NCBI RefSeq assembly: GCF_030296595.1 | Contig: NZ_AP027731.1 | Span: 930,001 to 994,000, forward strand | Direction of reading: 5' to 3' | DNA from: Naasia aerilata | Lineage (GTDB): Bacteria; Actinomycetota; Actinomycetes; Actinomycetales; Microbacteriaceae | Length of the DNA stretch: 64,000 bases | In this document: positions 3,001-20,120 of the stretch, in pieces | How the letters are laid out: every line of letters starts with the position of its first letter | Position numbering within the stretch: the first letter of the stretch is position 1 | Position numbers and translations under genes: made by a program | The notes under the pieces: model-generated | The model's database searches: none | What the model was told of the DNA's origin: nothing | Seen by the model: the letters and a program-made list of their open reading frames with translations, nothing else

Positions 3001-4563
3001 CGCGCTCGGCGTCCCCCTGCCGATCGGCACACCGACCGCCTTCGTCGAGCCGGTCGACGATCCGCTCGGCGATCTGGTCGGCCGGTACGCCCGCACCCAC
3101 GGTCCGTTCACCGCGGCCGCCGCCGCCTCGCGACTGGGCCTCGGCGTCGCCGTGGTGACGGACGCCCTCCGCCGGCTCGCCGTCGAGCGTCGCGTGGTGG
3201 ACGGCGAGTTCCGGCCCGGCGGCCAGGGCACCGAGTGGTGCGACGTCGAGGTCCTCCGCCGGCTGCGCAGCCGCTCGCTCGCAGCCCTGCGCAAGGAGGT
3301 CGAGCCGGTCGACCACGCCGCCTACGGCCGCTTCCTGCCGTCCTGGCAGCAGGTGGGCGGCAAGCTCCGCGGCGTGGACGGTGTCGCAGCGGTGCTCGAC
3401 CAGCTCGGCGGCGTGCCAATCCCCGCGTCCGCCTGGGAGAGCCTCGTGCTGCCGAGCCGCGTCCGCGACTACTCCCCCGCGATGCTCGACGAGCTGACCG
3501 CGACCGGCGAGGTGCTCTGGTCCGGCTCGGGCGCCCTGCCCGGCAACGACGGCTGGGTGAGCCTCCATCTCGCGGACACGGTCGCCCTCACCCTCCCTGA
3601 CCAGCCGGAGCCCGAGCTCAGCCCCCTCGAGCGCGAGATCCTCGCCGCGCTCGGCAGCGGCGGCGCATTCTTCTTCCGCCAGCTGTCCGACTCCGTGGGC
3701 AGCCTCGACGACGCGCTCATGACGACCGCGATCTGGAACCTGGTCTGGGCGGGCCTCGTGACCAACGACACGTTCGCGCCGCTCCGGGCCCTCGTCGGCT
3801 CCGGCGGATCCGCGCACCGCCAGCCGCGCAAGCCCTCGCGGACCCGCTCCTTCCGGGGCCGGAGCCTCCCGCGCCCCAGCATGCCGTCGCGATCGGGTGC
3901 GCCCATCGTGGGCGGTCGCTGGTCGATCGTGCCCCTCGCCGAGGACGAGCCCACCCTCCGCGCCGCCGCGACGGCCGAGCTCCTGCTCGACCGGCACGGC
4001 GTCGTCACCCGTGGAGCGGTGGCGAGCGAGCGCGTTCCGGGCGGCTTCGCACTCGTCTACAAGACGCTGAGTGCGTTCGAGGACAGCGGCAAGGCGAGGC
4101 GCGGATACTTCATCTCCTCGCTGGGTGCCGCCCAGTTCGCTACGTCGGGCGCGGTGGACCGGCTCCGCTCCTTCAGCCGCGACCCCGGCGACGAGCAGCG
4201 GGAGGTGTCCTGCATCGCCCTGGCCGCCACCGACCCGGCCAACCCCTACGGCGCCGCGCTGCCCTGGCCGCAGCTGGAGGGACACCGCCCGGGACGCAAG
4301 GCGGGCGGCCTGGTCGTGCTGCTCGACGGCGACCTCGCGCTCTACCTCGAGCGAGGCGGCAAGACGATGCTGACGTTTATCTCCGAGGCCGGCGCGCTCA
4401 CCCAGGCCACGGCGGCACTCGCCGACCTGGTCCGCAGCGGGGCGGTGGACAAGCTGGCGATCGAGAAGGTGAACGGCGACTTCGTGCTCGGGACCGACGT
4501 GGGCCGGGCGCTCGAGGCCGCCGGCTTCTCGGCGACCCCCGCGGGCTGCGACTCCGTGCCTGA
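35..4563 (+). CDS. lhr: Lhr-type ATP-dependent DNA helicase (frame broken near its 3' end in this assembly)
   Basis: Superfamily 2 helicase of the large Lhr class, which translocates on single-stranded DNA and unwinds duplexes during repair. Visible motifs are Walker A APTGSGKT near residues 45-52, the DEVH box near 169-172, the motif V stretch LELGIDMG and the motif VI arginine region QRLGRAGHQ; a long winged-helix/beta-barrel Lhr core and C-terminal domain follow. The reading frame runs straight into the next gene because of a C5 run at 4536-4540. Adding one C gives the C-terminus ATPRGLRLRA followed by TGA at 4561-4563, which overlaps the GTG of nei by 8 bases, for a protein of 1509 residues. 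The ATG at 35 has only a weak upstream GGAGGT at 11-16, too distant to be ideal. Confidence 0.9.
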
Positions 4564-5350
4564 GGGCGACACCGTCTACCAGGCTGCCCGCCGGCTGGAT
4601 GCGGCGCTCCGCGGACGGGTCCTCACCGGCTGCGATGTGCGAGTGCCGAAGTACGCGACCGTGGACCTCACCGGCCAGGTGGTGCACGAGGTCGTGTCGC
4701 GCGGGAAGCATCTGCTCATGCGCGTCGGTGACAGCACCATCCACTCGCACCTCAAGATGGAGGGCGTCTGGCAGGTGTACCCCACCGGCGGCCGCTGGCG
4801 CCGGCCCGCCCACGAGGCGCGCATCGTTCTCGACACCGCCGAGTCGCAGGCCGTCGGGTTCGCGCTCGGCATCCTCGAGATCCTCCCCACCAGCGAGGAG
4901 GAGGGCGTCGTCGGGTACCTCGGACCCGACCTGCTGGGCCCCGACTGGGATGCGGCGGAGGCGGAGCGCCGGCTGCGCGCCGAGGGGGCGCGCCCGATCG
5001 GCATCGCGATCCTGGATCAGCGCGTGATGGCAGGACTCGGCAATGTCTACCGCAGCGAGGTGTGCTTCCTGCGGGGCGTCCTTCCCACCCGGCCCGTGGA
5101 TCAGACCCCGGACCTTCCCGCCTGGATCGACCTCAGCAAGCGCGTCATCACCGCCAACCGCGACCGGGTCGAGCGGATCTTCACGGGCAACACCCGTCGC
5201 GGCCAGGGCACGTGGGTCTACGGGCGGGCCGGAAAGCCCTGCCGGCGCTGCGGGACCCCGATCCGGATGGAGTGGCTCGGCGACCCGGTGGTGGAGGGCC
5301 GCGGAAGCACCGACCGGCAGGTCTATTGGTGCCCGCAGTGCCAGTCGTGA
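4556..5350 (+). CDS. nei: Fpg/Nei-family DNA glycosylase/AP lyase
   Basis: Base-excision repair glycosylase that removes oxidised bases and nicks the abasic site. The family needs a free N-terminal proline as nucleophile; here GTG at 4556 is followed directly by Pro2-Glu3 (MPEGDTVYQ), so this GTG must be the true start. The C-terminus carries the zinc finger with two CxxC pairs (CRRC and CPQC), and the total of 264 residues is normal for the family. It overlaps the repaired end of lhr by 8 bases, so translational coupling is likely. In the raw sequence it is in frame with lhr and looks like a fusion, which would abolish the Pro2 chemistry; I consider that artefactual. Confidence 0.9.
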   Translation: MPEGDTVYQAARRLDAALRGRVLTGCDVRVPKYATVDLTGQVVHEVVSRGKHLLMRVGDSTIHSHLKMEGVWQVYPTGGRWRRPAHEARIVLDTAESQAVGFALGILEILPTSEEEGVVGYLGPDLLGPDWDAAEAERRLRAEGARPIGIAILDQRVMAGLGNVYRSEVCFLRGVLPTRPVDQTPDLPAWIDLSKRVITANRDRVERIFTGNTRRGQGTWVYGRAGKPCRRCGTPIRMEWLGDPVVEGRGSTDRQVYWCPQCQS

Positions 5351-5520
5351 CCTCGATGTGAGATCGCACGAGCGCGGCCGGCCCCGGTCGTCACGCGTCC
5401 CCCGAATGGCCGCTAGATGAACGATTTGGTAACGGCCCTACCGATGTCGGCGCGCCTCGATACGCTTCGACCACCGGCCGCGTGCCACCCACACGAAGCG
5501 GACGACACGAAACGCGCTAC

Positions 5521-5589
5521 CGATGCCCGGCCCCAGGCAGCGCGCGGCTGAAGACAGGGCCGAATCACCCCGAGACGAGCGGTCACGCG
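5521..5589 (+). promoter_or_regulatory. Leader of first small membrane protein, copy A
   Basis: The 69 bases before the start codon align with those before the next small gene (about 5988-6059). Shared blocks are CGATGCCC, GAAGAC-GGG and CCCCGAGAC-AGCGGTCA, then ATGACCAC. Further upstream (near 5463-5501) CGCTTCG and CGAAGCG can form a 7-bp stem. This may be a conserved promoter-proximal element or a structured RNA leader; the sequence alone does not decide. Confidence 0.5.
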
Positions 5590-5850
5590 ATGACCACAGC
5601 ACCGCCCCCTGCCCCCATCACCACGACCGGCGAGGTCGCCCTCCCCGTCAGCTCCGGATCCATGCTCCGCATGCTCAGCGAGCAGTCCGAGCCACAGCAC
5701 ACGTATGCCGTGCCGCGCGACCACGCGCACTCCTCGCGTCGGGATTCGTTCCGCCCGCGGCGCCGCGGAGAGGTCGCCCTCCTCTGGAGCGCGACCGGCT
5801 CGCTGATGCTGGCATCCACGGCGCTCGTCGCGGGCGTGCTCATCCGCTGA
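5590..5850 (+). CDS. Small membrane protein with single C-terminal membrane segment, paralogue A
   Basis: An 86-residue protein I do not recognise. It starts MTTAPPPAP, has a proline/threonine-rich then arginine-rich soluble part (SSRRDSFRPRRR near residues 48-59), and ends in one hydrophobic segment of about 20 residues just before the C-terminus, so it is probably inserted with a short outside tail and a positive cytoplasmic face. The next gene encodes a protein of the same plan (MTTA start, SGSM motif, arginine-rich middle, terminal membrane helix) and the two share their upstream sequence, so I infer a local duplication. I chose the ATG at 5590 because the similarity to the second copy begins exactly there. 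Confidence 0.6.
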   Translation: MTTAPPPAPITTTGEVALPVSSGSMLRMLSEQSEPQHTYAVPRDHAHSSRRDSFRPRRRGEVALLWSATGSLMLASTALVAGVLIR

Positions 5851-5987
5851 CACCCCTTCTGGGGGTGCGGCGCTAGCACAGTCGGAGCCTCTGCGACACC
5901 CTCCGCAGTACCGGCACCTCGTCACGTACCGTTTCTGTCACCGGGTCGTACTACCCGGCTCGTCGGTGGGGACGAATCGCAGGAAGC

Positions 5988-6059
5988 GATGCCCCGCAGC
6001 ACGAGTCGTCCCGGGCGAAGACGGGGTCAACTGAGCCCCGAGACAAGCGGTCAGATGCC
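5988..6059 (+). promoter_or_regulatory. Leader of second small membrane protein, copy B
   Basis: Counterpart of the leader at 5521-5589. It holds two good hairpins: CCGGGT/ACCCGG just upstream at 5941-5958, and GGGG-ATCGC pairing with GCGAT-CCCC around 5969-5995. A third possible pairing is GGGGTCA with TGAGCCCC at about 6023-6039. The last block, CCCCGAGACAAGCGGTCA, is nearly identical to copy A. The arrangement hints at a structured leader RNA, but no known class was matched with confidence. Confidence 0.45.
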
Positions 6060-6305
6060 ATGACCACTGCATTCGATGTCACCAGCGCAGCTCCTCTCCC
6101 CTCCGGCTCCATGACTCAGCGCGTCGCCGACGCGGTCGTCCCGCTGATCGGCGGTCGCGCCCCGTCGACGCGCCGGTCCAGCGCCGGCCGCCGCCAGACC
6201 TACGTCGCCCGCTCGGCCGACCGCTTCCTCGTGCGCGCGGCGACCGGGTGCCTCGCTGTCGGCGGCCTCCTGCTGTCCTTCGGCGTCACCAGCCTCTTCC
6301 TGTAA
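6060..6305 (+). CDS. Small membrane protein with single C-terminal membrane segment, paralogue B
   Basis: An 81-residue protein without a recognised family. It begins MTTAFDVTSAAPLPSGSM, has an arginine-rich stretch around residues 38-57 and ends in one hydrophobic segment of about 22 residues at the very C-terminus. Its architecture and its leader match the preceding gene, though the sequences have diverged apart from the first residues and the SGSM motif. It lies tail to tail with the carbohydrate cluster, whose last gene ends 20 bases away on the other strand. Function unknown; a membrane-localised peptide regulator is only one possibility. Confidence 0.6.
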   Translation: MTTAFDVTSAAPLPSGSMTQRVADAVVPLIGGRAPSTRRSSAGRRQTYVARSADRFLVRAATGCLAVGGLLLSFGVTSLFL

Positions 6306-6324
6306 GCGTTCGGCCTCCGACCCC

Positions 6325-8439
6325 TCACCGGACCCGACCGGTAAGGACGCGGTCTGCGAGCCTCTCGCCCAGGTCCTCGACACGGTGGATGCCCCGGACA
6401 TGGGCGACGGGCACCCAGGGCAGCCAGCGGCGGTTGAGACCGTATCCGCGGCGAGGCGAGAAGCTCCAGTGCTCCTGCTGCCAACCCGGCCCGCGCAGGT
6501 CGAAAAGCCGTCCGTCTCGGGCCAGCATGGTTGTCGTACCGTGGGTCACCAAGCGGGCGACGGCCAGCCAGTGGTCGTCCTCTGTCTCCCGGTAGAGCCG
6601 CGCGAATGCTGAGGCGTTCACGGCGAGGAAGCCATCGGTCATCGAACAGCCGGTCGTTATGAGCTGATGCCCGATGGTGCTCACTCCCCGCTTCCAGTGG
6701 ATGTCCGCCTCGGCATCGACGGGCATCGGCACATTCCAGATGTAGATCCAGGTCTCGGCGACGGACGCGGCGGACAGCGCTCGATCGAGCCAACGCCGGT
6801 CCCCCGTCGCCTCCCACAGGTCGAGGAATCCTTCGGCGGAGAGGATCGCCGCCTCTTTGTCGACGACGTCCGGGTTGTCGAGCGTCGCTCCGGCGTACCA
6901 GCCGGAGCTTCCGCCGGCGTTCCACCCGTAGTCGGCCGCCGCTATCGCCCCGTCGAGGTACCGGCGCTCAGCCGTCGCCGTCGCCAGGGCGGCGAGGAAC
7001 GGGACGACGACGTACGCCGCCGAATCCGAGACATCGAGGGGACGTCCGGTCCCCGCCTCCCAAGCCCGCGGCAGCGATCCCCCGCGCTCTGCTGGGACAC
7101 CAGCCAGTCTCCGCCCTTGCAGCACCAGGCCAGCCAGCCTGGGCGATCCCGTCCCCGCTCTCGCTCCCACCGCCACGCATCGAGCACCGCGAGGCAACCT
7201 TCCGCCACGGAGCGCGCATACACCGCGTCCGCGTCACGATATCGCCGGTACGTCGTGGCCTCGCCTGAGCGCCCCGAGAACCCCTCCGCGCTTGGCGGGT
7301 CGAGAGGATGCCGGTGAACGTGTCGATGACCCGCTCGCCCAGATCGCGGAACCGGGTTCCGTCTACTCCCGATGTCGACTCGGCGACGCGCAGCAGCACA
7401 TATGCCGCGTCCGTGTTGGCGCCCACGAAGCCCATGACCGCCGAGTCATCCTCGTCCGTGCGTTCGGGGGCCACCGCATCCGACTCCAGCCTGATTCCAG
7501 TGCGACCTCGCACAGTGATGACCTGCTCGGCCAGCACAGCCGTGCAGTCCTCGACTACTGCGTGAAGATCCGCTTCCGCCACCGTGGGATTCAGAGCCTG
7601 CCAGGCCCAGCGCCACACGCTTCCCCAGCACTCGACCGGCCCCGCTGAATGCCCCGCACGGAAGGCGACGGCGTACCGCTGGGTGACACCGTCCGTCGTG
7701 GGATGGTACCTGCGGCGCCAGGCGGGCAGTTGAAGCAGCGGGAGGCCGCCGCTGCTGTACGTGAGCTCCCCTCGGACCCCGGGAAGCGGACGCCCAGTGT
7801 CAGTCCGTCCGCTTCCTGCACGGTTCCGAGCGAGGCGAACGCGAACCGGGGGTCCACCAGCGTTTCGCCGCCATTCGCGGTCCGCCCGTCCTCCGCAATG
7901 GTGGTGCCGTCGGGGTCAAGATGAAGCACTCCGAGCCAGGCGCCGCCCGGCTTGCGAAGTGCGAACACAGGGGCGGCCATCCGGTCCTCCCGGATCAGGC
8001 AGTGCCGGACCCGGGCGAGGCGAGATGGCCTTCCGGCGAGCGCACGCTCCGCCACTCGCGGGGCGTCCCCGTAGGCGACACCGGGAACGAACGCCTCAGC
8101 CTCGGTCCACTCGCGCACCCCGGTCGGGAGGGCGATGGAGGTCCCGAAGGCCAGAGGCGCGCTTCCCCGCACCCGCACCTCGCGGGCCAGGACCACGGCG
8201 TCCTCTGCCACGGACCATCGGTCCTCGACCTCCAGTCGGCATCCTCGGGCGAGGGAGACGACGGCGGTGCCGGTGAATCCGGCATCGGCAGGGTGGACGC
8301 CGTCGTAGGGAACCGAAATCCCGCCGTCCGGACGCTCGACCTCAACCGGGCGTGGCTGGACGAGGGACCAGCCCTCGAGTTCGACACCGACTCCCCATGC
8401 ATCGCCCGCGGCTACCGCGGCGACCGTCGGCGCGTTCAT
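6325..8439 (-). CDS. Putative (alpha/alpha)6-type carbohydrate-active enzyme, paralogue 1 (three frame breaks)
   Basis: Protein of 705 residues after repair, with no signal peptide, so cytoplasmic. The N-terminal third looks like a beta-rich domain and the remainder like helical repeats of an (alpha/alpha)6 barrel; landmarks are WYAGATLDNPDVVDKEAA and the IWNVPMP region. A second gene at 16793-18959 shares these landmarks (TLDNPNLVDKEAA, LQNVPNVP), so the two are paralogues. I cannot assign a glycoside hydrolase or lyase family. Frame changes lie at C4 7777-7780, near 7281-7299, and at C5 7079-7083; restoring one base at each gives a continuous frame. The ATG at 8439 overlaps the permease stop as ATGA, and it is the last gene of the cluster, so it probably trims imported oligosaccharides. 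Confidence 0.6.
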
Positions 8440-9302
8440 CCCTTGATCCCGCTCGAGGCGATGCTCGGCACGATGAAGCGCTGAAAGACCAGGAACATGA
8501 CGACGATCGGAATGGTGAGCAGCACCACCCCAGCCATCTGCACCGTGGGCAGGGTGTAGTTCTGCGCCTGCAGGCTGTTGAGCCCGACGGTGAGAACGAA
8601 CAGGTCGGGGTCCGAGGTCATGGTGACGGGGACGAGGAAGCCGTTCCAGGTCCACGTCCCCGCGAGGATGGCCTGGGTTGCGATCCCGGTGATGCTGAGC
8701 GGCACTCCGATCTGCAGGAAGGTGCGGAACCGGCCCGCGCCGTCGATCGCTGCGGCCTCCTCCAATTCTCTCGGCAGGGTGCTGAAGGACTGGCGCATGA
8801 GGAAGATCAGAAGCGGGTTCACGAGGAAAGGGATCACGAGCGCCTGGTAGCTGTTCAGCCAGCCGAGGTCGACGATCTGCAGATAGAGCGGGATCAGGTA
8901 GGCCTGCAGCGGCACCATCAGCACCGCGACGATGGCCAGGAACACCAGCTGGCGGCCGCGGAATCGGAAGCGGGCAAGTGCCCATCCCGCGAGCGTGTTG
9001 ACGATGACGGCCCCGAGCACCACGCCTGCCGTGACGATGGCGGTGTTGAGGTACCACTGCCCGATGGGGGCGTGGGTGACCACGTAGCTGTAGTTGTCGA
9101 GGGTGAGCTGGGTGGGCGGCACCAGCGACAGATAGTCCGCGGGCGACAGCAGCGAGGCGTACAGCACGAAGAACAGCGGTGCGGCCATCACGAGCGCGAA
9201 GAGGATGAGGAACGCGTACCGGATCATGGAGAGCGCTCTGCGACTGCCGCTCGCGCTCCGCGGCGAAGCTGCTGCCGCCTGTCGGGTCGCGACCGCGCTC
9301 AT
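8436..9302 (-). CDS. Carbohydrate ABC transporter permease, MalG type
   Basis: Inner-membrane permease of 288 residues with six predicted membrane segments. The cytoplasmic EAA loop that docks the ATPase is visible at about residues 182-201 (EAAAIDGAGRFRTFLQIGVP). It overlaps the MalF-type partner by four bases upstream (stop/start overlap at 9299-9302) and the putative hydrolase downstream by four bases, so the three are translationally coupled. No ATPase gene lies in this cluster; in related bacteria such importers commonly share one MsiK-like ATPase encoded elsewhere, which I infer here. Confidence 0.9.
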   Translation of the reverse strand: MSAVATRQAAAASPRSASGSRRALSMIRYAFLILFALVMAAPLFFVLYASLLSPADYLSLVPPTQLTLDNYSYVVTHAPIGQWYLNTAIVTAGVVLGAVIVNTLAGWALARFRFRGRQLVFLAIVAVLMVPLQAYLIPLYLQIVDLGWLNSYQALVIPFLVNPLLIFLMRQSFSTLPRELEEAAAIDGAGRFRTFLQIGVPLSITGIATQAILAGTWTWNGFLVPVTMTSDPDLFVLTVGLNSLQAQNYTLPTVQMAGVVLLTIPIVVMFLVFQRFIVPSIASSGIKG

Positions 9303-10242
9303 ACGTCCTCCTCCTTGGGGCCGAGACGTCTGCTGACGATGCCGGCGACCAGCACGAGCACGAGCAGAACGACCGTGGCCGCGCTCGCGTAGCCGAGGGC
9401 GTTGAGCCGGAATGCCTGCTGGTAGATGAAGACGACGATCGTCGACGTCGCGCCCGCAGGGCTCCCGAGCACCGTGCCGCCGGAGATCACATAGGCCTGG
9501 TCGAAGATCTGCACCGCCTGGATCACTCCCGCCACGACGACGAAGACCGCGAACGGCCGGATCCCCGGCAGCGTCACGTGCCAGAACCGCCGAAGCACGC
9601 CGGCGCCGTCCATGCTCGCCGCCTCGTAGAGGAAGTCGGGGATGGTCTCGATCCCGCCCACGAAGATCACGATGTACAGCCCCACGAACATGTAGACGTA
9701 GACGATGACAAGGAAGGCCAGGGCCAGTCCCGGGTCGGCATACCAGGTGGAGTTCGGCAGGCCGAAGGCGGCCAGACCCGTCGCCGCCGGTCCGCCTTTG
9801 ACGAAGAGCTGCATGAAGATCGTCGTGATGGCGACGGTCGAGGTCATGTACGGGACGAAGTATGCGGTGCGCAGGACGCTCCTCCTCGACGCACGCCGTG
9901 CAGCGCGGCGGCCACCAGCAGGGCGAGCAGCGTCTGAGCCGGCACGACGCCGAGCACGAACGTGCCCGTGATTCCGAGCGAGCGCAGGAACGCAGGGTCG
10001 CCGAAGAGCTGGGCGTAGTTGTCCAGCCCCACGACTGATCGCCGCCCGAAGTCGAACTTGCTGACCTGCTGGAAGCTGAGGAGCACCGACTGCACGATCG
10101 GCGCCACGAACCACCAGGCGAGCAGCACTACGGCGGGCGCGAGCATGAGCCACGCGGCGCCGGTGTCCCTCCTCGCCCCTCGGTCGCTGGCGCTCGAGGT
10201 GCTACGGGTGATCAGTGCACCGGGAACCGGGGGTGCGGTCAC
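9299..10242 (-). CDS. Carbohydrate ABC transporter permease, MalF type (one frame break)
   Basis: Partner permease of the same importer; 314 residues after repair. The N-terminal part has a membrane segment (AWLMLAPAVVLLAWWFVAP) and the C-terminal part the EAA loop (YEAASMDGAGVLRRFWHVTLP). The frame changes around 9880-9886, between the LVAAALHG stretch and LRTAYFVPYMTS; one restored base near the GG pairs joins the halves. The GTG start at 10242 is preceded by GGAG with a 6-base gap. It sits 62 bases downstream of its binding-protein gene. Confidence 0.8.
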
Positions 10243-10304
10243 GCTGTTCTCCGTTCCTCGAGGGGAGGCGGCACTCGCCCGCCGCCTCCCCGACTCGGCG
10301 GGGG

Positions 10305-11549
10305 CTACTGCCCGTACTTGTCCTGCAGACCGGCGAGGAGCTCCTTCGACGACGTTGAGCCGTCCGCCACGAGCTGCTGGAATCCCGTCACCAGGTCGTT
10401 GCCGAACTCCGTCGTCTTGATCGGGTAGTCGAGCGATACGCCGGCGGCGAGCACGTCCGCCGTGAAGGCGGCGTACTGGGGCGTCTCGTCCCGGTACTGG
10501 TCCGCGTACTTCGTCATGGCCGGCACGAACCCGAGTTTGGTGCTGAGGACGGCCTCCTGCGAGGTCGTGTCCGTGAGCAATGCGATGACCTTGGCAGCCG
10601 TCTCCGGATCCTTGGCCGCCGCAGAGAGGCTGAACCCGCCGCCGTAGGTCGCGACCACGGGGCTGCCCGCATCGACACCCGGGATGGGCGTGAGTTCGTA
10701 CTTGACGTCCGGCGCCGTGGTGCCCATGAAGCCGATGTACCAAGGGCCCCCGTCGGACGACGCCGCGAGCCCATTGGCCAGCGCCTCACCGTCCCAGGTC
10801 GCGCCCAGCTGCTGTGCTGTCTGGGCGGAGCCGTCCTTGAACAGGCCGAGCAGGAAGTCGAGGCCGGCCTCGTTCTCCTTCGAGTCGATGGTCTTGCCGA
10901 AGTCGTAGCCGCCGCCGGCCGCGAGCATGTACTGCGTGAGGTGGAAGAGGTTATCGAGGAGCACGATGCCCGGCTTGCCCGTGGCGCTCTTCACCTGCCG
11001 CGCGTCGGCGGCAAGGTCGTCGAGTGTCTGCGGGAGGTCCGTGATGCCGGCAGCGCCGAGAACATCGGTGTTGAAGGCATAGGCCGAGTTCTGCAGATAC
11101 GACGGCACCGCGTACAGGCCGTCCTCGATGCGCCAGCCCTCGACCAGCGCCTTGGGGTAGAGGCCGAGGTCGACGTCGGTTCCCTTGATCAGGTCGTCGA
11201 TCGGCTGGATCGCCCCCTCGGTCGCATACTGCGCGATGGGCGCGGAGTTGTCCCACAGGATGATGTCGGGCGCGGTCTTCGCTGCGAACTGCGTCGGCAG
11301 CTGGTTCAGCTGGTCGTCATAGGTCGGGTACACCGCTGTCTTGATCTTCACGTCCAGCTTGTCCTCGACGTGCTTGATGATGGTGGACATATAGGTGTCG
11401 ACGGCACCGCCGCCGGCGTAGCCGATGGTGATCTGGCCGGCTCCTTGACCTCCTGACGAGGGGCCTCCTGACGAGCCGCACCCGGTGAGTGCGGCGGCGA
11501 CGACGGTGAGTGCGGCGAGAGCTCCGCTGGTTCGGCTGATTCGGTTCAT
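10305..11549 (-). CDS. Extracellular carbohydrate-binding lipoprotein of ABC importer 1
   Basis: Solute-binding protein of the family that feeds MalFG-type sugar importers; 414 residues. The N-terminus is a lipoprotein signal with the lipobox LTGC, so Cys24 is the likely lipidated residue, followed by a Gly/Ser-rich linker. The mature part shows typical family features such as APDIILWDN near the ligand cleft. Its position directly before two permeases defines importer 1. The ligand is unknown; the adjacent GH127 gene suggests an arabinose-containing oligosaccharide. Confidence 0.88.
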   Translation of the reverse strand: MNRISRTSGALAALTVVAAALTGCGSSGGPSSGGQGAGQITIGYAGGGAVDTYMSTIIKHVEDKLDVKIKTAVYPTYDDQLNQLPTQFAAKTAPDIILWDNSAPIAQYATEGAIQPIDDLIKGTDVDLGLYPKALVEGWRIEDGLYAVPSYLQNSAYAFNTDVLGAAGITDLPQTLDDLAADARQVKSATGKPGIVLLDNLFHLTQYMLAAGGGYDFGKTIDSKENEAGLDFLLGLFKDGSAQTAQQLGATWDGEALANGLAASSDGGPWYIGFMGTTAPDVKYELTPIPGVDAGSPVVATYGGGFSLSAAAKDPETAAKVIALLTDTTSQEAVLSTKLGFVPAMTKYADQYRDETPQYAAFTADVLAAGVSLDYPIKTTEFGNDLVTGFQQLVADGSTSSKELLAGLQDKYGQ

Positions 11550-11607
11550 GGGGGCCTCCTTGCCCGGGCTGCGATTCTTGGGGACGTGCGGTTCGATCGG
11601 CGACGGG

Positions 11608-13580
11608 CTACTCGGCGCCTACCCCCTTCCTAGAGCTGTCGGAGGAATTGTCGGCCGGGAAGCGGAGCCCGTCCTGCTCGTCGAGCAGCGGGAGCCAGAC
11701 CCGCATCTCGGAGGGCCCGCGCTCGGCCCAGCGGTGGTACGGGATCATCCGCAGGCGGGTGGGCGTCACCTGTGCGACGGCAGCGGGAGGACCGTAGGGC
11801 CATGCCTCGTCCGGATCTTCGGCCTGCATGGCGGCCATCTGGACGCCCCCTCCTCGCGGGAGGGGCTCGCCCCTGCCGGAATGGAGAGGGAGCGGAGATG
11901 CGTCCCTGGCGCCAGGTCGACGGACTCCGCACAGAGCACGAGGGGGCCGGCCTCGACCGCGACCGAGTTCCGGAGGGCATCGATCCTCGGGTCGGGGAGA
12001 GTGATCCGCGGTTCGATCGGCAGGCTCAGGCGCACCACGTCCCCGGAGCGGAACCGGGAGCTCACCTCGGCAGTAGCCCCGAGCACGGGCTGGTCGCCCA
12101 TGCCGGTGTCGAGCGTCGCGCGCCCTCGCGCCCACGAGGGAACGCGCAGGGACAGCGTCCACTCCCGACCCGCGTCGGCCTCGACCGTCACGGCGATGTC
12201 TCCCGACCAGGGGTAGTCGGTGTTCACGCTGAGCCGCACCCGCTCGCCGTCCGGAAGGACGGTGTCGAGAGCACAGGCAGCGTACTGCTGGAGCTGGACG
12301 CCGGCCGTGCTCTTCGTCGCGATGTAGCCGGACAGGCTCGCGACGGTACGGGCCACGTTGGTGGGGCAGCAGGAGACGTCGAACCACGGCGCCCGCTGGC
12401 TCGATGCTGCACGCGGGCTCGGCTCGTCCACCATCGCCTCGATACCGGGGCTGTTGCGCTGGAGCGGGTTCACATAGAAGAACGATGTTCCGGATGCGTC
12501 GGGACTGGTCGCCACCACGTTGAAGAGGGTGCGCTCGATGAGGTCGGCGTACTGCGCCCCACCCTCGGCGAGCAGGAGGCGGTGGCTCAGCATGATGGAG
12601 GCCACTCCCGCGCACGTCTCCGAGTAGGCCCGGTCGGAGGGGAGTTCGAAGTCGTCCCCGAAGGACTCCCCCTCGTGCCGCGATCCCATGCCGCCCGTGA
12701 GGTAGGTGCGATGGGCGACGGTGTTGCGCCACTGCGTCTCGACGGCGGAGAGCAGGTCGTGGTCCCCGTCCTCCACCGCGACGTCCACCGCGCCGGATGC
12801 CAGGTACAGCGCGCGCACTGCGTGGCCTCGGAGCACGTCCGCCTCGCGGACCCGCACGTCATCTTGGAAGTACTCGGGACCCGTCTCTCCCGCGTTCAGA
12901 GTGCCGGTGCCGCGGCGCTCCACGAAGAGCCGCGCCTGGTCCAAGTACCGACGGTTCCCCGTGACGCGGAACAGCTCGGCGAGCGCCGGCTCGATCTCGG
13001 GGTGTCCGTCGATACGCTCGATGCCGCCGGGGCCGAAGGTGTCGCAGATGTGGTCCGCCAGGCGGAGCGCAGCGGCGACGAAGGCGTCGACCCCGTGCGT
13101 GCGGGCGCGGGCGACTGCGGCCTGGATCAGGTGGCCGGCGCAGTACAGCTCGTGCCCCCACTCGAGGTCCGAGTACCGGGGCTGCTGGCCGGGGCCGCCG
13201 AAGCGGGTGTTGAGATATCCGTCGGGCTGCTGGGCAGCGACCACCCGGGCGGATACGTCCTGGAAGGTGCGCTCGACCCACTCGTCTCCGCTGCGCGCAG
13301 ACTCCCAAGCGAGAGCCTCGAGCAGCTTGTAGATCTCCGAGTCCGCGAACTCGCGGCCGGCGCTCGGGGCTTCCACGCCCGAAGCGGCGCGATCGAAGTT
13401 CCCGATCCAGCCGAGGCGCTCCATCCACTTCAGGCAGTGCCGCAGCGTGGCGGTTCCGTTGACCTCCTGGCGGTCGGCCCAGAAGCCGCCGGTGATGGTG
13501 ACGTCCGCGGCGCTCACGGGAAGAAGAGCGCCGCTGCTCGGCAGAACGGTGGCGGCAGGCTGATGGTCGGTCAGGGTCAC
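11608..13580 (-). CDS. GH127-type beta-L-arabinofuranosidase (one frame break)
   Basis: Predicted to release L-arabinofuranose from beta-linked oligosaccharides, such as those of plant hydroxyproline-rich glycoproteins. After repair it has 657 residues, matching family size. The metal site and nucleophile of the family are visible: Glu321 and Cys323 in YSETCAG, and Cys404-Cys405 in DVSCCPTN, corresponding to the Cys3-Glu zinc site of characterised GH127 enzymes. There is no signal peptide, so it should act on imported material. The frame changes at C5 11846-11850, and one added base continues into the C-terminal beta domain ending at 11608. The GTG at 13580 lacks a strong ribosome site. It lies between the two import sets. 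Confidence 0.85.
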
Positions 13581-13629
13581 GGGGTCGTCCGTCCGTTCTG
13601 GGTCAGTGGCTGTGCGCGTCCGACTCGGC

Positions 13630-14445
13630 TCACTTCAGGCTTCCCGCCGTCATGGCCGCCACGATGCGGTCGCTGAGGATGATGTAGATGACTACGGTCG
13701 GCGCCATCCCGATCACAGTCGCGGCGAACGCCAGCGGGTAGTTCGCCGAGTAGGTCGTGAGGAAGTACCGGACGCCCACCTGGATGGTCTGGGCTTCTGT
13801 GTCCTTCGTGAGGATCGCGGCGAACAGCAGCTCGTTGAACGCGGTGATCATCAGGAAGATGGCGGCCGTGATCGCGCCGGGTGAGGCGAGGGGCGCCGCA
13901 ATGCGCACGAACACGGAATTGAAGCCGGCCCCGTCGATCCGCGCCGCCTCGAAGATCTCCGCTGGAGTCGTGTCCATGTAGGTCTTCACGATGAGGAAGC
14001 CGAGCGGGAAGAACAGTCCCGCGTACACGAGGCCCAGGCCGAGGACCGAGTTGTAGAGGCCCATCATGTTGACCAGGAAGAAGATCGGGGTCATCAGAGC
14101 GTTGACCGGCAGCAGGATCCCGAACAGCAGGAAGCCGAACGTCGCCCGGCTGAGCCGGAAGCGGTGCAGCAGCGCGTAGGACGCCATGAGGGAGGCGAGG
14201 ACGATCACGACGGTGGCCAGCACGGCCGCCCCGATGCTGTTGCGCAGGTACAGGTAGAGCGGGTGCGCGTCGAGCGCTGCCGCGTAGTTGTCGAAGCGCC
14301 ATTCGCTGGGGAGACCGAACGGGTTCGCGAAGATGTCCGCCTGCGTCTTGAATGACGACGCTACGAGCCACAGCAGGGGGAGCAGGGTGATGAGCGTGAA
14401 GACCCCGAGGACCACCCACCGGAAGCTCTTGCCGATGATGCTCAT
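13630..14445 (-). CDS. Carbohydrate ABC transporter permease, MalG type (importer 2)
   Basis: Membrane permease of 271 residues with six predicted segments; the EAA loop is seen as FEAARIDGAGFNSVFVRIAAP. Its ATG at 14445 overlaps the stop of the preceding permease as ATGA. Only about 50 bases separate it from the GH127 gene downstream, so co-transcription is likely. It belongs to the second of two import sets in this cluster. Confidence 0.9.
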   Translation of the reverse strand: MSIIGKSFRWVVLGVFTLITLLPLLWLVASSFKTQADIFANPFGLPSEWRFDNYAAALDAHPLYLYLRNSIGAAVLATVVIVLASLMASYALLHRFRLSRATFGFLLFGILLPVNALMTPIFFLVNMMGLYNSVLGLGLVYAGLFFPLGFLIVKTYMDTTPAEIFEAARIDGAGFNSVFVRIAAPLASPGAITAAIFLMITAFNELLFAAILTKDTEAQTIQVGVRYFLTTYSANYPLAFAATVIGMAPTVVIYIILSDRIVAAMTAGSLK

Positions 14446-15392
14446 CGCTCGGTCCTCCTCAGCACCCAGAAGGTGGCCGCGGTCAGGGCGATGCCCAGCA
14501 CGAGGGTGACGACGCCCGCCGCCATGGCAAGCCCGTACTGGTTCGCGGTGAGCATCTGCCGATAGATGTAGAGCGACAGCGTGATGGACGAGTCGGCCGG
14601 CCCGCCGCTCGTCATGATGAACGGGTACTCGAAGCTGCGCAGCGCGTACCCGACGACGAAGAGGACCTGCAGCGCGATGGCGCGGCGGATGAGCGGGATG
14701 GTGATCGACCAGTCCTGTCGCAGCGACGAGGCGCCGTCGAGCTGAGCGGCCTCGTAGTACTCCTGCGGGATGGTCGAGATCTGGGTGAGGAACAGGACCA
14801 TGCCGAAGCCGATGTAGACCACCCACGGGGTCATGGTCACTCCGAGCGCCGTCGACGGATCGAACAGCCAGTTCCGGGTGAGGTTCGAAAGCCCGACGAG
14901 CTTCAGGCCCGAGTTCAGGAGTCCCAGGCTGACGTGGAAGACGAAGTACCACAGCAGGGCGAGGGAGGTCGCGGAGATGATGTTGGGGAGGAACAGGACG
15001 GTGCGGAACACCTTCCATCCCCGCGGCTTCCGGGACACCACGAGCGCGACGAGGATGCAGAGGGGCGTGTGGATCAGCACCCCCACCGCCACCCACAGCA
15101 GCGTGTTCGCGATGGCCTTGAGGAACGCCGGGTCGTTGAACAGCCGCACGTAGTTGTCGAACCCGATCCAGGCCGGCACGCCGACCCCGGACCACTGGGT
15201 CCCGCTGAGAGCGATCACCACGAGCGTCGGCACGGCGAGGAACACGGTGACGAGGGCCAGGGCCGGGAGCAGGTAGAGCAGCACGCTCCAGCCGTGCCCG
15301 CCCTTGCGGACGGTGCGGGGTCGTGGGAGCGTCGCAGCGCTCGTCACCGCTGCGGCCGGCGGAGCGGCGACGCCGGGACTTGTGGTCGTCAT
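14442..15392 (-). CDS. Carbohydrate ABC transporter permease, MalF type (importer 2)
   Basis: Partner permease with an N-terminal Ala/Pro-rich cytoplasmic extension before the first membrane segment (WSVLLYLLPALALVTVFLAV) and the EAA loop YYEAAQLDGASSLRQDWSIT. The ATG at 15392 is chosen because it follows a strong ribosome site, GAGGAGGT, five bases upstream. It lies 90 bases downstream of its binding-protein gene and overlaps its partner by four bases. Confidence 0.9.
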   Translation of the reverse strand: MTTTSPGVAAPPAAAVTSAATLPRPRTVRKGGHGWSVLLYLLPALALVTVFLAVPTLVVIALSGTQWSGVGVPAWIGFDNYVRLFNDPAFLKAIANTLLWVAVGVLIHTPLCILVALVVSRKPRGWKVFRTVLFLPNIISATSLALLWYFVFHVSLGLLNSGLKLVGLSNLTRNWLFDPSTALGVTMTPWVVYIGFGMVLFLTQISTIPQEYYEAAQLDGASSLRQDWSITIPLIRRAIALQVLFVVGYALRSFEYPFIMTSGGPADSSITLSLYIYRQMLTANQYGLAMAAGVVTLVLGIALTAATFWVLRRTER

Positions 15393-15482
15393 GGCACCTC
15401 CTCGGTGCGTGGTCGGTCGGTGGGGGCCGAAGAGGAAGGGAGGATGGCCGGGCACAGGAGACCCGGCCATCCGGTCTATCCC

Positions 15483-16784
15483 CTACTGGGCGTTCGCGGC
15501 CTGGAGCTTGGTCGCGAACTGCTCGGGCGTCGTCTGACCGAGCGCCAGCGACTCGAGCAGGCTCGGCAGCTGGGCCTGGGCATCGGTGGTGATGCCGCGG
15601 GCCATCTGGACGATCGCGGCCGGAGCGGCGTTCGAGATGTCGAGGACCTCCGCCATCTGGCAGGAGGCCTTCTCCTTGTCCGCGTCCGAGAGCTCCGTCT
15701 GCACGGCCATGGGGTACTCGCCCTCGACCGCCATCTTCACGGCGCTGTCGTTGGAGGTGAAGAACTTCATCCAGGCGACGACCGCCGCCTCCTTCTTCTT
15801 GTCCGTCTGCTTCGCAGCACCCCACACGTTGAGCGAGTCGGTGACGGTGTAGCCGGGGTCGATCTCACCGTTGTCGAACGTGGGTGCCGCCGCGACGCCG
15901 ATGCTGCAGGCGTCCTTCACCGTGCTCTGGATCGAGCTGATGAGCCACGGTCCGTCAATGATGGACGCGGACTGGCCATTGAGGAAGTTGCTCGAGCTGG
16001 CGGCGTAGTTGCCGCCCACCGCGTCCGGCGTCGAGAGGGCGAGGAGACGCTTGGTGTAGTCGGCCGCCTTGACGATGGCCGGGTTGTCGAGGTCCGAGCC
16101 GGGTGCGTAGACGTCCGCGCCGCCTTCCGCAGTGGCGAGGTAGCTGAACGCGTTCATGGTGTGCCACGAGTCGTCCGCGGTCATGAGCGAGATCGCGCCG
16201 ACACCGGAGTCCTTCAGCTTCTGCGCGTCGGCGAGGTACTCGTCCCACGTGGCGGGGAAGGCGTCGATGCCCGCCTTCTTGAACAGGTCCTTGTTGTAGT
16301 AGAAGAGCGTCGGCGCCTGGTCGCCGGGAATCCCGATCAGCTGGCCGTCGATGGTCAGGGCGTCGAGGTTGTCCTGCTTGAAGCGGGCCTTCCAGTCGGC
16401 GTCGTCTTCCAGAGCGCTGGACCAGTCCATGAGGGCGCCCGACTTCTCTCGCGAGAGGTCGGTCGGGTTGTAGTTGTAGAGGAACACGTCGGGCGCGCTG
16501 CCTGCGCTGATGGAGGAGCGGATCTGCTGCTGCAGCGTCGGCCAGTCGGGCTGCGCCTTGGAGACGACCGTGTAGTCGCCCTTGTGCTCGGAGTTGAACT
16601 GCTTGATGAGCTCGTCGAGCACCTTTCCGCGGGTGACGTCGGAGGTGAAGTTCGAGAGGATCTCGATCTCCGTGCCGGAGCCCGAGCCGGAGCCGGACCC
16701 GCCTGCCGGCACTGCGCTGTTGCAACCGGCGAGGAGCGCGACCGCGGCGGTGATCCCGAGCACGGCGAATGCGTTCTTCTTCAT
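15483..16784 (-). CDS. Extracellular carbohydrate-binding lipoprotein of ABC importer 2
   Basis: Solute-binding lipoprotein starting MKKNAFAVLG with lipobox LLAGC, so Cys21 is the predicted lipidation site, then a Gly/Ser linker. Mature landmarks include FYYNKDLFKKAGI and YNPTDLSREKSG, usual for this family. Two starts are possible: ATG 16784, with AAGG five bases upstream, and ATG 16796, which overlaps the stop of the previous gene as ATGA; I prefer 16784. It is only distantly like the importer 1 binding protein, so the two importers probably take different oligosaccharides. Confidence 0.88.
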   Translation of the reverse strand: MKKNAFAVLGITAAVALLAGCNSAVPAGGSGSGSGSGTEIEILSNFTSDVTRGKVLDELIKQFNSEHKGDYTVVSKAQPDWPTLQQQIRSSISAGSAPDVFLYNYNPTDLSREKSGALMDWSSALEDDADWKARFKQDNLDALTIDGQLIGIPGDQAPTLFYYNKDLFKKAGIDAFPATWDEYLADAQKLKDSGVGAISLMTADDSWHTMNAFSYLATAEGGADVYAPGSDLDNPAIVKAADYTKRLLALSTPDAVGGNYAASSSNFLNGQSASIIDGPWLISSIQSTVKDACSIGVAAAPTFDNGEIDPGYTVTDSLNVWGAAKQTDKKKEAAVVAWMKFFTSNDSAVKMAVEGEYPMAVQTELSDADKEKASCQMAEVLDISNAAPAAIVQMARGITTDAQAQLPSLLESLALGQTTPEQFATKLQAANAQ

Positions 16785-16792
16785 GATTCCCT

Positions 16793-18959
16793 TCATTGGG
16801 GTGATGTGGTGGAGAGGTGGCTGTTGGTGAGGGAGGTCGAGTCGACGGCCGCGAGGTACTCGCCGAGGCCATAGGTGCCGGCGGTGTAGGGCCAGCCGAG
16901 GCCGCCCCAGGTGTCGCCCTTGCCGATCAGGCCCTCGTCGACGCCCTGCGGACAGAAGGAGATCCCCTCGGGCTGCATGCCGACATCGGCGTACCCGTGG
17001 GTTCGCCCGGGGGTCGCGAGCATCTGGAGGGACGATGCCGCGATGAGCTCGGCCACTCGCACGAAGCGGTCGATGCCGAGACGCACGCCCAGCCGATGCA
17101 GGTCGGCCACGTAGAAGAGCGAGTAGATGTCGGTGACGCCCACGCCCCATACGCTGTTGATGCCGCCCCAGCCCACCGAACGGGCTCGGGCGCGGCCGAG
17201 GGGGTCCCCGGCACATTGGGCACGTTCTGCAGGGAGTGCCAGGTGATCGCGACCTCCGCCGCCTCGCGGGCGCCGTCGACGAGGTCTCCGGGGTCCGTGT
17301 CCACCTCCGCCGCCGCCAGGAGGGCCCGCATGGCGATGAACGCGGCCTCTTTGTCCACGAGGTTGGGATTGTCGAGGGTTCCGCCTCGGTACTCGGCCCG
17401 GCGCACATGGTTCTCGAGCACGAACGAAGCCCCTGCGCGTGCGGCGGCGGCGAAGGCACTCGCCTCGGCCCCCGCCTCCTCGGCGAGGGCCACGAGGAAC
17501 GGGACGACGGTGCCCGTCGCGCTCTTGCCCGAGTGATCGCGCTCGCCGAACCAGTCGCCGCCGACGAGGGGCTCCCCTCGGGCGAGTAGGCGCGGTACCA
17601 GGAACCGTCGCCCTCCTGGACGCGGACGAAGAAGCGGCCGAGCCGCAGAGCGGCCTCGCGCCAAGCGCCGACGTCCCCGCCGCGATCCCGATGCAGGGCG
17701 ATGTTGAGCAGCAGGTCGCCGCCGGCCTCCGCCATCATCCTCGTGTAGGTTCCCGGCAGGTCCGAGCGTCCCAGGTAGTGCATGACGGGGCCGCTGGGAT
17801 CCCCGCACGCGAACACCGGGCGGCCCTCCCGAACATTCCACAGGGTGTGGACCCAGCCCGACGGCGTCGCCATGCGCTCGACGAAGGAGTCGACGACTGC
17901 GCGCGAGCGGTCCATCCACTCGGAGTCCCGGCCGGCCAGGAGGGCCGCCAGATTCAGCTGCCGCCCGGTGAAGCCGTACTCGATGATGTCGCGGGCATTT
18001 CCCATGGCGTGGTCCGCGAACGAGGCGCCGAACGCCTTGGCTGTCGAGGGGTAGCCCCGCTCCGGGTCGAAGTTGAGGACGAAGGCTGCGAACCCAGACG
18101 GGTCCCGGACCCAGGTGCGTGACGCTGAGTCGAGCCGGAGATCGATCGACTCTGCCAGCGACACCGGGGCTTCGGTGGGCACGGGCGCCGCAAGGTCGAG
18201 CGTCTCCTGGAAGGCGGCGGTGACGGCGTCGACGTAGCGCTCGGCTTTCGCGAAGCCGACGCGGTAGCGCGCCACGAACTCCAGGCCGTTCTCCGGAACC
18301 GGCAGGTAGGCCCGTGCAGGAGATCCTGCGGCGTCCAGCATGGCGCTCCTGGCACCCTCGCGATACGGCAGAGTCGCGATCAGCCTGTCGATACCGGGCA
18401 CGAAGCCGACGGCACCCAGGTCCGTCTGGTGGAGGAAGTCGTGCTGGCCCCTCGCTCGCTGTGCGCCTCGGTCCACCGTTGCGGTGCCGACGCGGGCCAG
18501 CCACGTGACGACCCCGGTGCTCTCCGCCCACCGCCCGACGACGGGGTAGGCGAGACGCGAGTCCGCGAACGTCCGCTCCACCCCTTCCTGCCACTGCTCC
18601 GGCGAGTAGACCATGCCGGGGGCGAAGAATCGGCCCGCAGGCGCGGCCTGGAGGTCCAAAGCCGACTCGAGGCGCGCCCCGGCGCCGGGAGAAGAGGCGG
18701 TGAGGCGGACACGCCGTTCCAGAGTTCCGTCTTGCTCGTCCCAGGTCTCGTGGATCGCGGCCGTCACGACGCCGAGGCTGAGACCCCATTCGGTGGTTAC
18801 GCGGGAGCCGACCCGCCGGCTCCCTCGTGGCCGGAAGTCGCCCACCTCGCCGGATAGCAGGACGAGCCGAGGCGCCGAAACAGTGACCGAAACGGGGAGA
18901 TCTGACGCGGCCACGACCGCTTCGCCGCTGTCTAGGGCCATCGCCACGGAGATCGTCAT
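16793..18959 (-). CDS. Putative (alpha/alpha)6-type carbohydrate-active enzyme, paralogue 2 (two frame breaks)
   Basis: First gene of the minus-strand cluster; 722 residues after repair, without a signal peptide. The N-terminal part is beta-rich, and the rest resembles helical-barrel sugar enzymes, with the landmarks YRGGTLDNPNLVDKEAA, WHSLQNVPNVP and WGGINSVWGVGVTDIYS. It is paralogous to the gene at 6325-8439. The frame changes at C4 17574-17577 and G5 17200-17204, each cured by one added base. In the raw sequence the first frame rejoins the following binding-protein gene and gives a false 1158-codon fusion. The product family is unassigned. Start ATG 18959 faces the LacI promoter. Confidence 0.6.
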
Positions 18960-18998
18960 GCGAATGGGCTCCCTTGCCAGGTCTCAGCGAAAACTACC

Positions 18999-19010
18999 GA
19001 AAGGCTTTTC
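18999..19010. promoter_or_regulatory. Candidate LacI-family operator
   Basis: In the 129-base gap between the divergent cluster and the LacI gene lies GAAAGGCTTTTC, an imperfect palindrome with GAAA/TTTC arms, extended as ACCGAAAGG-CTTTTCAG. It sits 40 bases before the first cluster gene and 79 before the regulator. Position and symmetry suit a LacI-type site; binding is inferred. Confidence 0.4.
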
Positions 19011-19088: not shown

Positions 19089-20120
19089 ATGAGCGCAGAA
19101 GACGCCCCGTCGCGGCCCCGCACTGCGACCCTCAGCGATGTCGCTCGAGCTGCGGGAGTCTCGATCGCCACGGCATCCAAGGCTCTGAATGGCCGAGATC
19201 AGGTGAAGGCGGAGACGCGTGACCGCGTCCTGCGGGCAGCGGAGCGACTCTCCTTCTTCCCCAACGCGCTCGCGAAAGGGCTGCTCGCAGGTCGAACGGG
19301 AACGGTTGGACTCCTCACCTCCGACCTGGAGGGCCGGTTCTCCATCCCGATCCTCATGGGGGCGGAGGACGCCTTCGGCGCCGGCAAGATGTCGGTCTTC
19401 CTCTGTGATGCCCGGGGTGATGCCATCCGCGAGCAGCACCACGTGCAGGCCCTGCTGTCCCGCCGCGTGGACGGGCTCATCGTGGTCGGGTCCAGCACGA
19501 ACCCCCGGACGTCCCTCGGCTCCGACCTGCCTGTGCCAGTGGTCTACGTATACGGTCCCTCCGAGGATCCCGCGGACCTGTCGATCATCACCGACAACGT
19601 CGACGCCGGCAGGCAGGCGGTCGACCACCTCATCGCCACCGGCCGCCGGCGCATCGCGCACATCTCGGGGGATGTCTCCTACTCGGCGGCCCGCGACCGG
19701 GCCGAGGGAGTGACCACAGCACTGACCGAAGCGGGACTGCCTCTTTCGGGCGAGCGAGTGATGTTCGGCTCGTGGAGCGAGAGCTGGGGCCGTGGCGCCA
19801 CGCGGCTGCTGCTCGAGCGCGCGCCCGACACCGACGCCATCGTCGCGGGAAGCGACCAGATCGCGCGAGGCGTCATGGACGCCCTCCACGAACGCCGCGT
19901 CGACATCCCGGAGGACATCGCGGTGATCGGCTTCGACAACTGGGCCGTCCTCGCCACCAACTCCCGCCCGCAGTTGACGAGCGTCGACCTGCGACTCGAG
20001 GAGCTCGGGCGACTGGCAGCTCAGCGGCTCTTCGAGGCGATGGACGGCGATGTGCGCCACGGCGTGGAGAGTCTGCGCTCCCGTGTGGTCACCAGGGGCT
20101 CGACCACTCCTTCGCACTGA
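19089..20120 (+). CDS. LacI-family transcriptional regulator of the carbohydrate cluster
   Basis: Sugar-responsive DNA-binding repressor of 343 residues. The N-terminal helix-turn-helix is clear (TLSDVARAAGVSIATASKA, about residues 14-32), with the hinge helix after it (ALAKGLLAGRTGTVGL). The rest is a periplasmic-binding-protein-like effector domain with the C-terminal landmark VIGFDNWAVL. It is divergent from the import/hydrolase cluster and is the obvious local regulator. The effector is probably a sugar released by the cluster enzymes. Confidence 0.9.
   Translation: MSAEDAPSRPRTATLSDVARAAGVSIATASKALNGRDQVKAETRDRVLRAAERLSFFPNALAKGLLAGRTGTVGLLTSDLEGRFSIPILMGAEDAFGAGKMSVFLCDARGDAIREQHHVQALLSRRVDGLIVVGSSTNPRTSLGSDLPVPVVYVYGPSEDPADLSIITDNVDAGRQAVDHLIATGRRRIAHISGDVSYSAARDRAEGVTTALTEAGLPLSGERVMFGSWSESWGRGATRLLLERAPDTDAIVAGSDQIARGVMDALHERRVDIPEDIAVIGFDNWAVLATNSRPQLTSVDLRLEELGRLAAQRLFEAMDGDVRHGVESLRSRVVTRGSTTPSH

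Follow-up and report, generated by a model that had tools for sequence, protein, structure and literature searches.

The question raised by this locus of Naasia aerilata is what two sugar importers and two enzymes of no named family do around a single GH127 gene. The window, i.e., the whole 64,000-nucleotide stretch of contig NZ_AP027731.1 that was analyzed (positions 930,001 to 994,000), carries nine minus-strand genes read from position 18959 to 6325 in the order A, SBP1, P1, P2, GH127, SBP2, P3, P4, and B, where A and B are the enzymes in question, SBP1 and SBP2 are sugar-binding proteins, and P1 to P4 are permeases. This order and these positions, proposed by a first-pass annotation made from the letters alone, agree with the open reading frame list and with Pfam and NCBIfam. 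We find that the locus is an A module and a B module merged over one common GH127. The system is real, well conserved, and of a known kind (binding-protein importer plus GH127); the twist is that two modules meet over one GH127. Functionally, we read it as a LacI-controlled operon for the uptake and breakdown of oligosaccharides, in which A and B would be exo-glycosidases acting beside GH127 on L-arabinofuranosyl oligosaccharides, and we put the probability of this reading at about 0.45. The argument draws on the following features.

19089..20120, plus strand: LacI-family regulator, divergent from the operon (Pfam LacI and Peripla_BP_3).
18998..19010, minus strand: operator-like near-palindrome GAAAAGCCTTTCG in front of A, the sole exact genome match to the consensus GAAARSSYTTTCG; similar sites stand upstream of related modules.
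16793..18959, minus strand: enzyme A (A subfamily), beta-sandwich plus (alpha/alpha)6, frame broken (tblastn with the intact L007 homologue, 716 aa, and the L018 homologue, three pieces; fold from a model of the L007 homologue).
15483..16796, minus strand: SBP1, lipoprotein-type sugar-binding protein (PF01547, 122.5 bits).
14442..15470, minus strand: P1, permease, whose start codon probably lies downstream of the listed end, near 15392 (PF00528, 42.7 bits).
13630..14445, minus strand: P2, permease (PF00528, 52.6 bits).
11608..13580, minus strand: GH127, common to both modules, frame change near 11859 (PF07944, 268 bits; 4qjy, 330.9 bits; tail in another frame).
10305..11549, minus strand: SBP2, lipoprotein-type sugar-binding protein (PF01547, 89.3 bits).
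9299..10206, minus strand: P3, permease, frame broken; 10206 is the limit of the tblastn match rather than a start codon (PF00528, 63 bits; tblastn with L017, two pieces).
8436..9302, minus strand: P4, permease (PF00528, 71.1 bits).
6325..8439, minus strand: enzyme B (B subfamily), of the same family as A, frame broken (tblastn with the intact L018 homologue, 716 aa, and the L017 homologue, four pieces; fold from a model of the L018 homologue).

ATGA overlaps join A to SBP1, P3 to P4, and P4 to B. Each importer set consists of a lipoprotein binding protein and two binding-protein-dependent permeases of the CUT1 type, and the PF01547 and PF00528 matches bear out the two importers annotated here; there is no ATPase gene among the nine, and no search was made for a shared ATPase. 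By tblastn with intact homologues, A lies in three pieces, B in four, and GH127 and P3 in two each. Given the intact copies in relatives, the number of breaks, and a second GH127 elsewhere in the genome that is also split, the breaks are likely sequencing or assembly errors.

The two modules occur apart in other actinobacteria. Searches with the window proteins (tblastn) recovered the A module, i.e., a LacI gene followed by A-SBP1-P1-P2-GH127, in the window, in genomes G004 (locus L057) and G387 (L058), and in Actinotalea (L018), as well as in a rearranged form in G133 (L059), with GH127 present in all five A-type loci. In L018, the LacI match begins at residue 90 and A follows directly, the stretch between LacI and A being missing. 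The B module, a LacI gene with GH127-SBP2-P3-P4-B, is found in Curtobacterium (L017), Actinotalea (L018), and two Cellulomonas loci (L024, L025). GH127 is present in seven of the eleven B-type loci of at least 13 kb (the window, L017 to L025, and L056), a count that leaves out L026 and L027, which are shorter than 4 kb; the GH127 matches of L020 and L021 are weak by tblastn, and Pfam confirms that of L020 (57.4 bits) in a scan that did not include L021. In the 3.39 Mb of the window genome, two GH127 genes are clear and a third match is marginal, so the adjacency of GH127 to the modules is not a matter of chance.

The window GH127 is closest to the A-module copy of G004, with 79% identity. Divided into eight blocks of 75 residues, it has the G004 copy as closest or tied relative in seven (with one tie each with L017 and G133), and in the remaining block, 451–525, the B-module copy of L018 (L018-B, 56%) and G133 (55%) exceed G004 (52%). 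A chimeric GH127 at the fusion point was considered and rejected, as no switch runs across the eight blocks. The first-pass annotation had taken the outer enzymes for a local pair of paralogues; instead, they belong to two old subfamilies, each with its own LacI gene, importer, and mostly GH127. Since identity between the intact B and four A-type proteins is just 24–27%, and each has its own module partners, a local duplication is ruled out. The window offers a clear example of how two catabolic operons can come together around an enzyme gene that both use.

LacI homologues adjoin the modules in L017, L018, L024, L025, L057, L058, and L059. A palindrome of the type CGAAAAGCTTTTCG stands before the first gene in G004, G387, L018-B, L024, and L025, less perfectly in L017, and before GH127 in G133 (G387 and parts of this list were judged by eye); L019 and L076 have different palindromes. 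The window site was known when the consensus GAAARSSYTTTCG was drawn up; genome-wide, this consensus matches exactly once, at 18998–19010, and its reversed control not at all. When up to three mismatches are allowed, the window alone gives two matches, a number equalled in 14 of 100 shuffles, and therefore the case for an operator rests on the comparison between genomes.

The enzyme common to both modules was annotated as GH127, which is borne out by a PF07944 match of 268 bits over positions 1–375 of 376, together with the middle and C-terminal GH127 domains. Among solved structures, it scores best with 4qjy (330.9 bits), ahead of 6ex6 (308.5 bits) and HypBA1 (274.6 bits); the nearest by score, 4qjy, is a Geobacillus beta-L-arabinofuranosidase, and 6ex6 is an aceric acid hydrolase. 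Residues E305, E321, C323, C404, and C405 are invariant in all eight module GH127s and align with HypBA1 and 4qjy; they correspond to the acid/base Glu, the Cys nucleophile, and the Cys3-Glu zinc set, roles that PMC10850190 gives in part. The same paper also names H142, Y145, H194, and R273 as binding residues of HypBA1, whose counterparts are found in the window GH127 (a by-eye count on the alignment) and are invariant in eight of eight module GH127s. Judged from the alignment, the active-site residues of the window GH127 are complete. Since 6ex6 has these four binding residues too, they do not distinguish beta-L-arabinofuranose from the other sugars released by GH127 enzymes.

The second GH127 locus of this genome (L076, C1:3114000-3133900) spans 4573–17699 and carries a LacI gene 60% identical to that of the window, a sugar-binding protein, two permeases, and the split GH127, whose first part shares 63% identity with the window copy. 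The set is completed by a large enzyme without assignment, spread over two frames, and by genes of the SMP-30 type, the short-chain dehydrogenase/reductase (SDR), Ldh2, and FAA-hydrolase families; it suggests that the sugar released here, which may be other than arabinose, is degraded oxidatively.

Enzymes A and B share landmarks that the first-pass annotation had noticed (TLDNPxxVDKEAA and NVP): TLDNPNLVDKEAA plus NVP in A, and TLDNPDVVDKEAA plus NVP in B. They are part of a family-wide motif, DNPxxxDKE, in which both Asp and the last Glu are invariant in all 16 rows of the family alignment. Neither Pfam nor NCBIfam gives the window pieces of A or B a match over its cut-off, in keeping with the earlier remark that the pair matches no family one could name. 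The profile check suggested at that stage was made with these two libraries rather than with CAZy profiles, and it gave no assignment and no clear match to a named family. Three of ten relatives pass a Pfam cut-off through a short patch of 27 to 48 residues (L020 and L016 to PF07944 with 27 and 28 residues; L027 to PF09492 with 48), and none of the ten passes an NCBIfam cut-off. A sequence search of the PDB with the single L018 protein found nothing at E up to 10; PDB profile searches gave partial (alpha/alpha)6 matches, the best being a pectate lyase (7.9e-7 over 77 positions). In a literature search, no title or abstract was recognised as describing the family, a weak absence given that papers are not searchable by sequence. 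It is plausible, then, that A and B belong to an undescribed family with no name in Pfam or NCBIfam.

A pattern-based scan of species genomes with the C-terminal part of B found 11 loci, which their record titles place in Actinomycetes, Calditrichia, Phycisphaerae, Verrucomicrobia, and Armatimonadota; among 72,556 plasmid records, a single one, that of Deinococcus aetherius, has a B relative, annotated ‘hypothetical protein’. In near genomes, the B piece matched 6 of 60 and the A piece 4 of 150 (the window’s own included in both counts), mostly weakly; an intact A homologue of 716 aa from the same genus (G004, L007) was found with the B query. Among 394 genomes of the class, the B profile matched 20, with E below 1e-40 in three (G000, G049, G387) and weaker matches in the others, which for the most part cover a portion of the barrel; one of these, L047, resembles a thioredoxin-domain protein when judged by eye. 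The A profile matched 17. Intact members are found in Cellulomonas, Curtobacterium, and Actinotalea genomes.

Several relatives are of interest in their own right. A Phycisphaerae metagenome-assembled genome (L022, 9464–13672, minus strand) has a B-type enzyme fused in-frame to a sulfatase (PF00884, 209 bits), and its locus carries a second B-type enzyme; the fusion suggests sulfated substrates for some family members. On plasmid pDAETH-1 of Deinococcus aetherius (L056, 10862–25098), a B relative lies with an importer and with genes for an FGGY kinase, an SDR, an FAD oxidoreductase, and phosphotriesterase-like, aldolase, and SIS-domain proteins; no GH127 was detected in this locus, and its pathway could reveal the sugar released. 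L015, L016 (G076, G163), and L027 belong to more distant subfamilies, 26–28% identical to L018 B, that keep DNxxxxDKE. A separate, common-looking subfamily of ~630–700 aa, marked by a ‘DQASxSNQHLHAYGL’ stretch and near the PF07944 cut-off, includes L008, L009, L010, L035, L038, and, outside the locus studied here, L004 of the window genome (C1:1836325-1836900).

The fold of A and B was predicted with AlphaFold from intact homologues rather than from the broken proteins of the window. The B model (L018; 10 sequences) has a predicted local distance difference test score (pLDDT) of 77.6 and a predicted template-modelling score (pTM) of 0.85, and the A model (L007; 16 sequences) a pLDDT of 79.8 and a pTM of 0.87; in both, a beta-sandwich is followed by 12 helices arranged as an (alpha/alpha)6 barrel, with long loops near the active-site rim that are poorly predicted. 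For either model, the best Foldseek match is a PL27 entry, 5nok in the case of B and 5no8 in that of A (TM-scores 0.38–0.48, root-mean-square deviation (rmsd) at least 10 Å, 8–10% identity), followed by GH94, GH63, GH116, and others, whose long alignments fit poorly. Of the 50 VIA rows listed, only that of 5no8 covers both domains (for B, Z 22.8 over 481 residues at 8.3 Å; for A, Z 24.9 over 497 residues at 6.9 Å), and many single-barrel enzymes reach Z 21–25 on the barrel. Candidates from the Foldseek list of A, i.e., GH94, GH63, GH116, GH121, and PL26, do not rise above the general (alpha/alpha)6 background, and neither the rank of a family in that list nor its absence from it excludes anything.

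Across 16 relatives (A, B, and outgroups), 22 columns are invariant and 17 nearly so. In the B model, 16 of the 20 invariant barrel residues are placed either in the first turn of an inner helix or in a loop leading up to one (p 0.006), and six charged invariants (R421, R470, D533, D539, E541, and E669 of L018 B) all sit on one barrel rim. The helix and loop limits were set from secondary-structure strings without coordinates, and the rim of the A model was read from the same ranges as that of B, so that the rim test is a guide. Profile comparison of the family with GH127 gave a probability of 42% (E 2.6e-4 over 232 columns), a weak similarity that goes together with the short PF07944 patches, but no Cys (and no His) is invariant or nearly invariant. 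There is therefore neither a Cys nucleophile nor a Cys3-Glu zinc site, and membership in GH127 was rejected. For GH76, whose entry titles point to a catalytic Asp pair (D136/D137), no invariant adjacent Asp pair was found, the equivalent position being unmapped, and PF03663 stayed below its cut-off in all relatives scanned.

Taken together, A and B are most likely exo-glycosidases, and their predicted substrate is most likely an L-arabinofuranosyl oligosaccharide. The two binding-protein importers would bring in short, probably plant-derived oligosaccharides, from which cytosolic A and B, as one family with two specificities, would each remove a residue that GH127 cannot. GH127, being HypBA1-like, would then release a sugar, most likely beta-linked L-arabinofuranose, that would enter metabolism via arabinose isomerase. 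We infer that A and B are hydrolases, that they act in exo mode, which sugar is released, and how the labor is divided. More tentatively, A and B together may found a new glycoside hydrolase family, present, by record titles, in six phyla, that supplies the missing exo-step beside GH127 in the beta-L-arabinofuranosyl oligosaccharide breakdown of actinobacteria; its catalytic carboxylates would lie in the DNPxxxDKE loop and in a QxE loop before the last inner helix, and the fusion of modules would have brought two subfamilies of different specificity under one operator.

The cytosolic placement draws on the N-termini. As first annotated, the outer enzymes have no signal peptide: A and B lack a hydrophobic N-terminus, which both binding proteins have. 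Eight of nine actinobacterial A/B proteins likewise lack one (12-residue maximum of at most 1.78, versus 2.49 and 2.53 in the binding proteins), with the B of L017 reaching 2.44 through a stretch near residues 27–39, and two Calditrichia relatives have one (3.91 and 2.74). Such a pattern is what one would expect if the enzymes work in the cytosol of the actinobacteria that have the importers and are exported in other groups. An arabinose isomerase gene is present in the window genome and in all nine genomes with family members (G049, without GH127 beside its B, among them), against 96 of 150 genomes in a background sample of the window’s family, two of the nine included (Fisher p 0.02), and in G387, araA and an aldolase-II gene lie ~5 kb from the LacI gene of the module, with three other genes between. 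PF07470 (GH88, including GH105) is over its cut-off in three of eight module genomes and below it in G556, gives no match in G000, G133, G557, and G559 (the window genome is among these four), and has no match inside a module locus. This rarity argues against a route through unsaturated uronates; since the window genome is 90.6% complete and has broken frames, a GH88 gene may have been missed there.

Several observations weigh on the other side. GH127 was not detected in four of the eleven B-type loci (L019, L022, L023, and L056), and the GH127 of L076, set among oxidative sugar genes, means that GH127 here need not mean arabinose. The arabinose isomerase comparison is to be taken as a guide only, given that some of the nine genomes are related to one another, that some come from other families, and that the background differs in family make-up. 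The fold resemblance is spread over lyases, epimerases, and glycosidases alike, and the sole solved match over both domains in the VIA rows is a lyase. In the A model, 15 of the 20 residues lie on the rim (p 0.064), which is not significant, and no activity is on record for any family member. The indirectness of the GH88 and arabinose isomerase tests and the A-model rim are why our estimate stays where it does.

That the one structure spanning both domains in those rows is a lyase brings in a different chemistry, in which A and B would act on uronates, as distant kin of the PL27 rhamnosyl-glucuronate lyase (BACCELL_00875, 5no8/5nok) or as GH154-like dehydratases. They would carry out an elimination across a uronate of arabinogalactan-type oligosaccharides, and the arabinose would be trimmed by GH127. 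PL27 is the best whole-length match of both models, its order of beta-sandwich and barrel is identical to theirs (PMC8377490), and two Arg are invariant in the A/B family, with one Lys and one Tyr nearly so. GH154, a related (alpha/alpha)6 family, has recently been reinterpreted as dehydratases (PMC12269599); as with A and B, fold and context had left its activity uncertain, and its members act with a second glycosidase. However, PL27 shares 8–10% identity with A and B at an rmsd of at least 6.9 Å, and 5no8 is absent from the PDB profile matches at E up to 10. This route also needs hydrolases of the GH88/GH105 type, with which GH154 co-occurs according to the same paper and the modules here do not, GH154 being compared by description rather than by sequence. 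We consider a uronate-acting pair unlikely. Two further chemistries are very improbable. Epimerases or isomerases of the N-acylglucosamine 2-epimerase fold would convert the imported sugar before GH127 acts, and cellobiose 2-epimerases and sugar isomerases do reach VIA Z ~21–25, but over the barrel only, with the beta-sandwich left outside, while GH76, AprG, and even terpene cyclases score alike there; moreover, the active-site His indicated by entry titles of epimerase His mutants has no invariant or nearly invariant counterpart when A, B, and the outgroups are aligned. As for disaccharide phosphorylases with a GH94-like architecture, Foldseek aligns them with long stretches of both models (E as low as 2e-7), yet they superpose poorly (rmsd at least 23 Å), with no GH94-like motif or sequence match in the PDB profile searches.

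A last alternative keeps A and B as hydrolases and changes the sugar: GH127 would release another residue of like configuration, such as aceric acid, 3,6-anhydro-D-galactose, or a hexofuranose of a microbial polysaccharide. The sole NCBIfam match of the window GH127 is to aceric acid hydrolase (318.7 of 950 bits), the four HypBA1 binding residues recur in 6ex6, the other GH127 of the genome adjoins oxidative genes, B relatives stand beside a sulfatase in Phycisphaerae, and some GH127 members are known to release 3,6-anhydro-D-galactose (PMC5698469). Against this stand the top score of the beta-L-arabinofuranosidase 4qjy, the arabinose isomerase in nine of nine genomes, and the DGHPEIE stretch of HypBA1, which by eye is kept in the window GH127 and reads PGHQIAE in 6ex6; several module GH127s have CGH there. 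All in all, we hold a different sugar to be rather unlikely.

Among the closest known systems is the beta-L-arabinooligosaccharide cluster of Bifidobacterium longum, which combines the GH127 HypBA1, the GH121 HypBA2, and an ABC importer (PMC7263609, PMC10850190). In both, a binding-protein importer adjoins GH127 and the enzymes would serve imported short oligosaccharides. Unlike that cluster, the window has two importers on one GH127, additional signal-less enzymes of an unnamed family, and, within the nine genes, no GH121, for which no genome-wide search was made. GH127 systems have been worked out in bifidobacteria and Bacteroides; soil and plant actinobacteria repeatedly carry, next to GH127, an enzyme family that neither Pfam nor NCBIfam names and that lends itself to direct testing. 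Should A and B prove to be hydrolases, the carbohydrate-active enzymes may gain a family; should they turn out to be lyases or dehydratases, the recent reassessment of GH154 would reach further.

Outside the locus, many frames of this genome are broken, which is why one joining in the window may be an artefact: a single open frame at 35–5350 encodes both an Lhr-type helicase and a formamidopyrimidine-DNA glycosylase-type domain.

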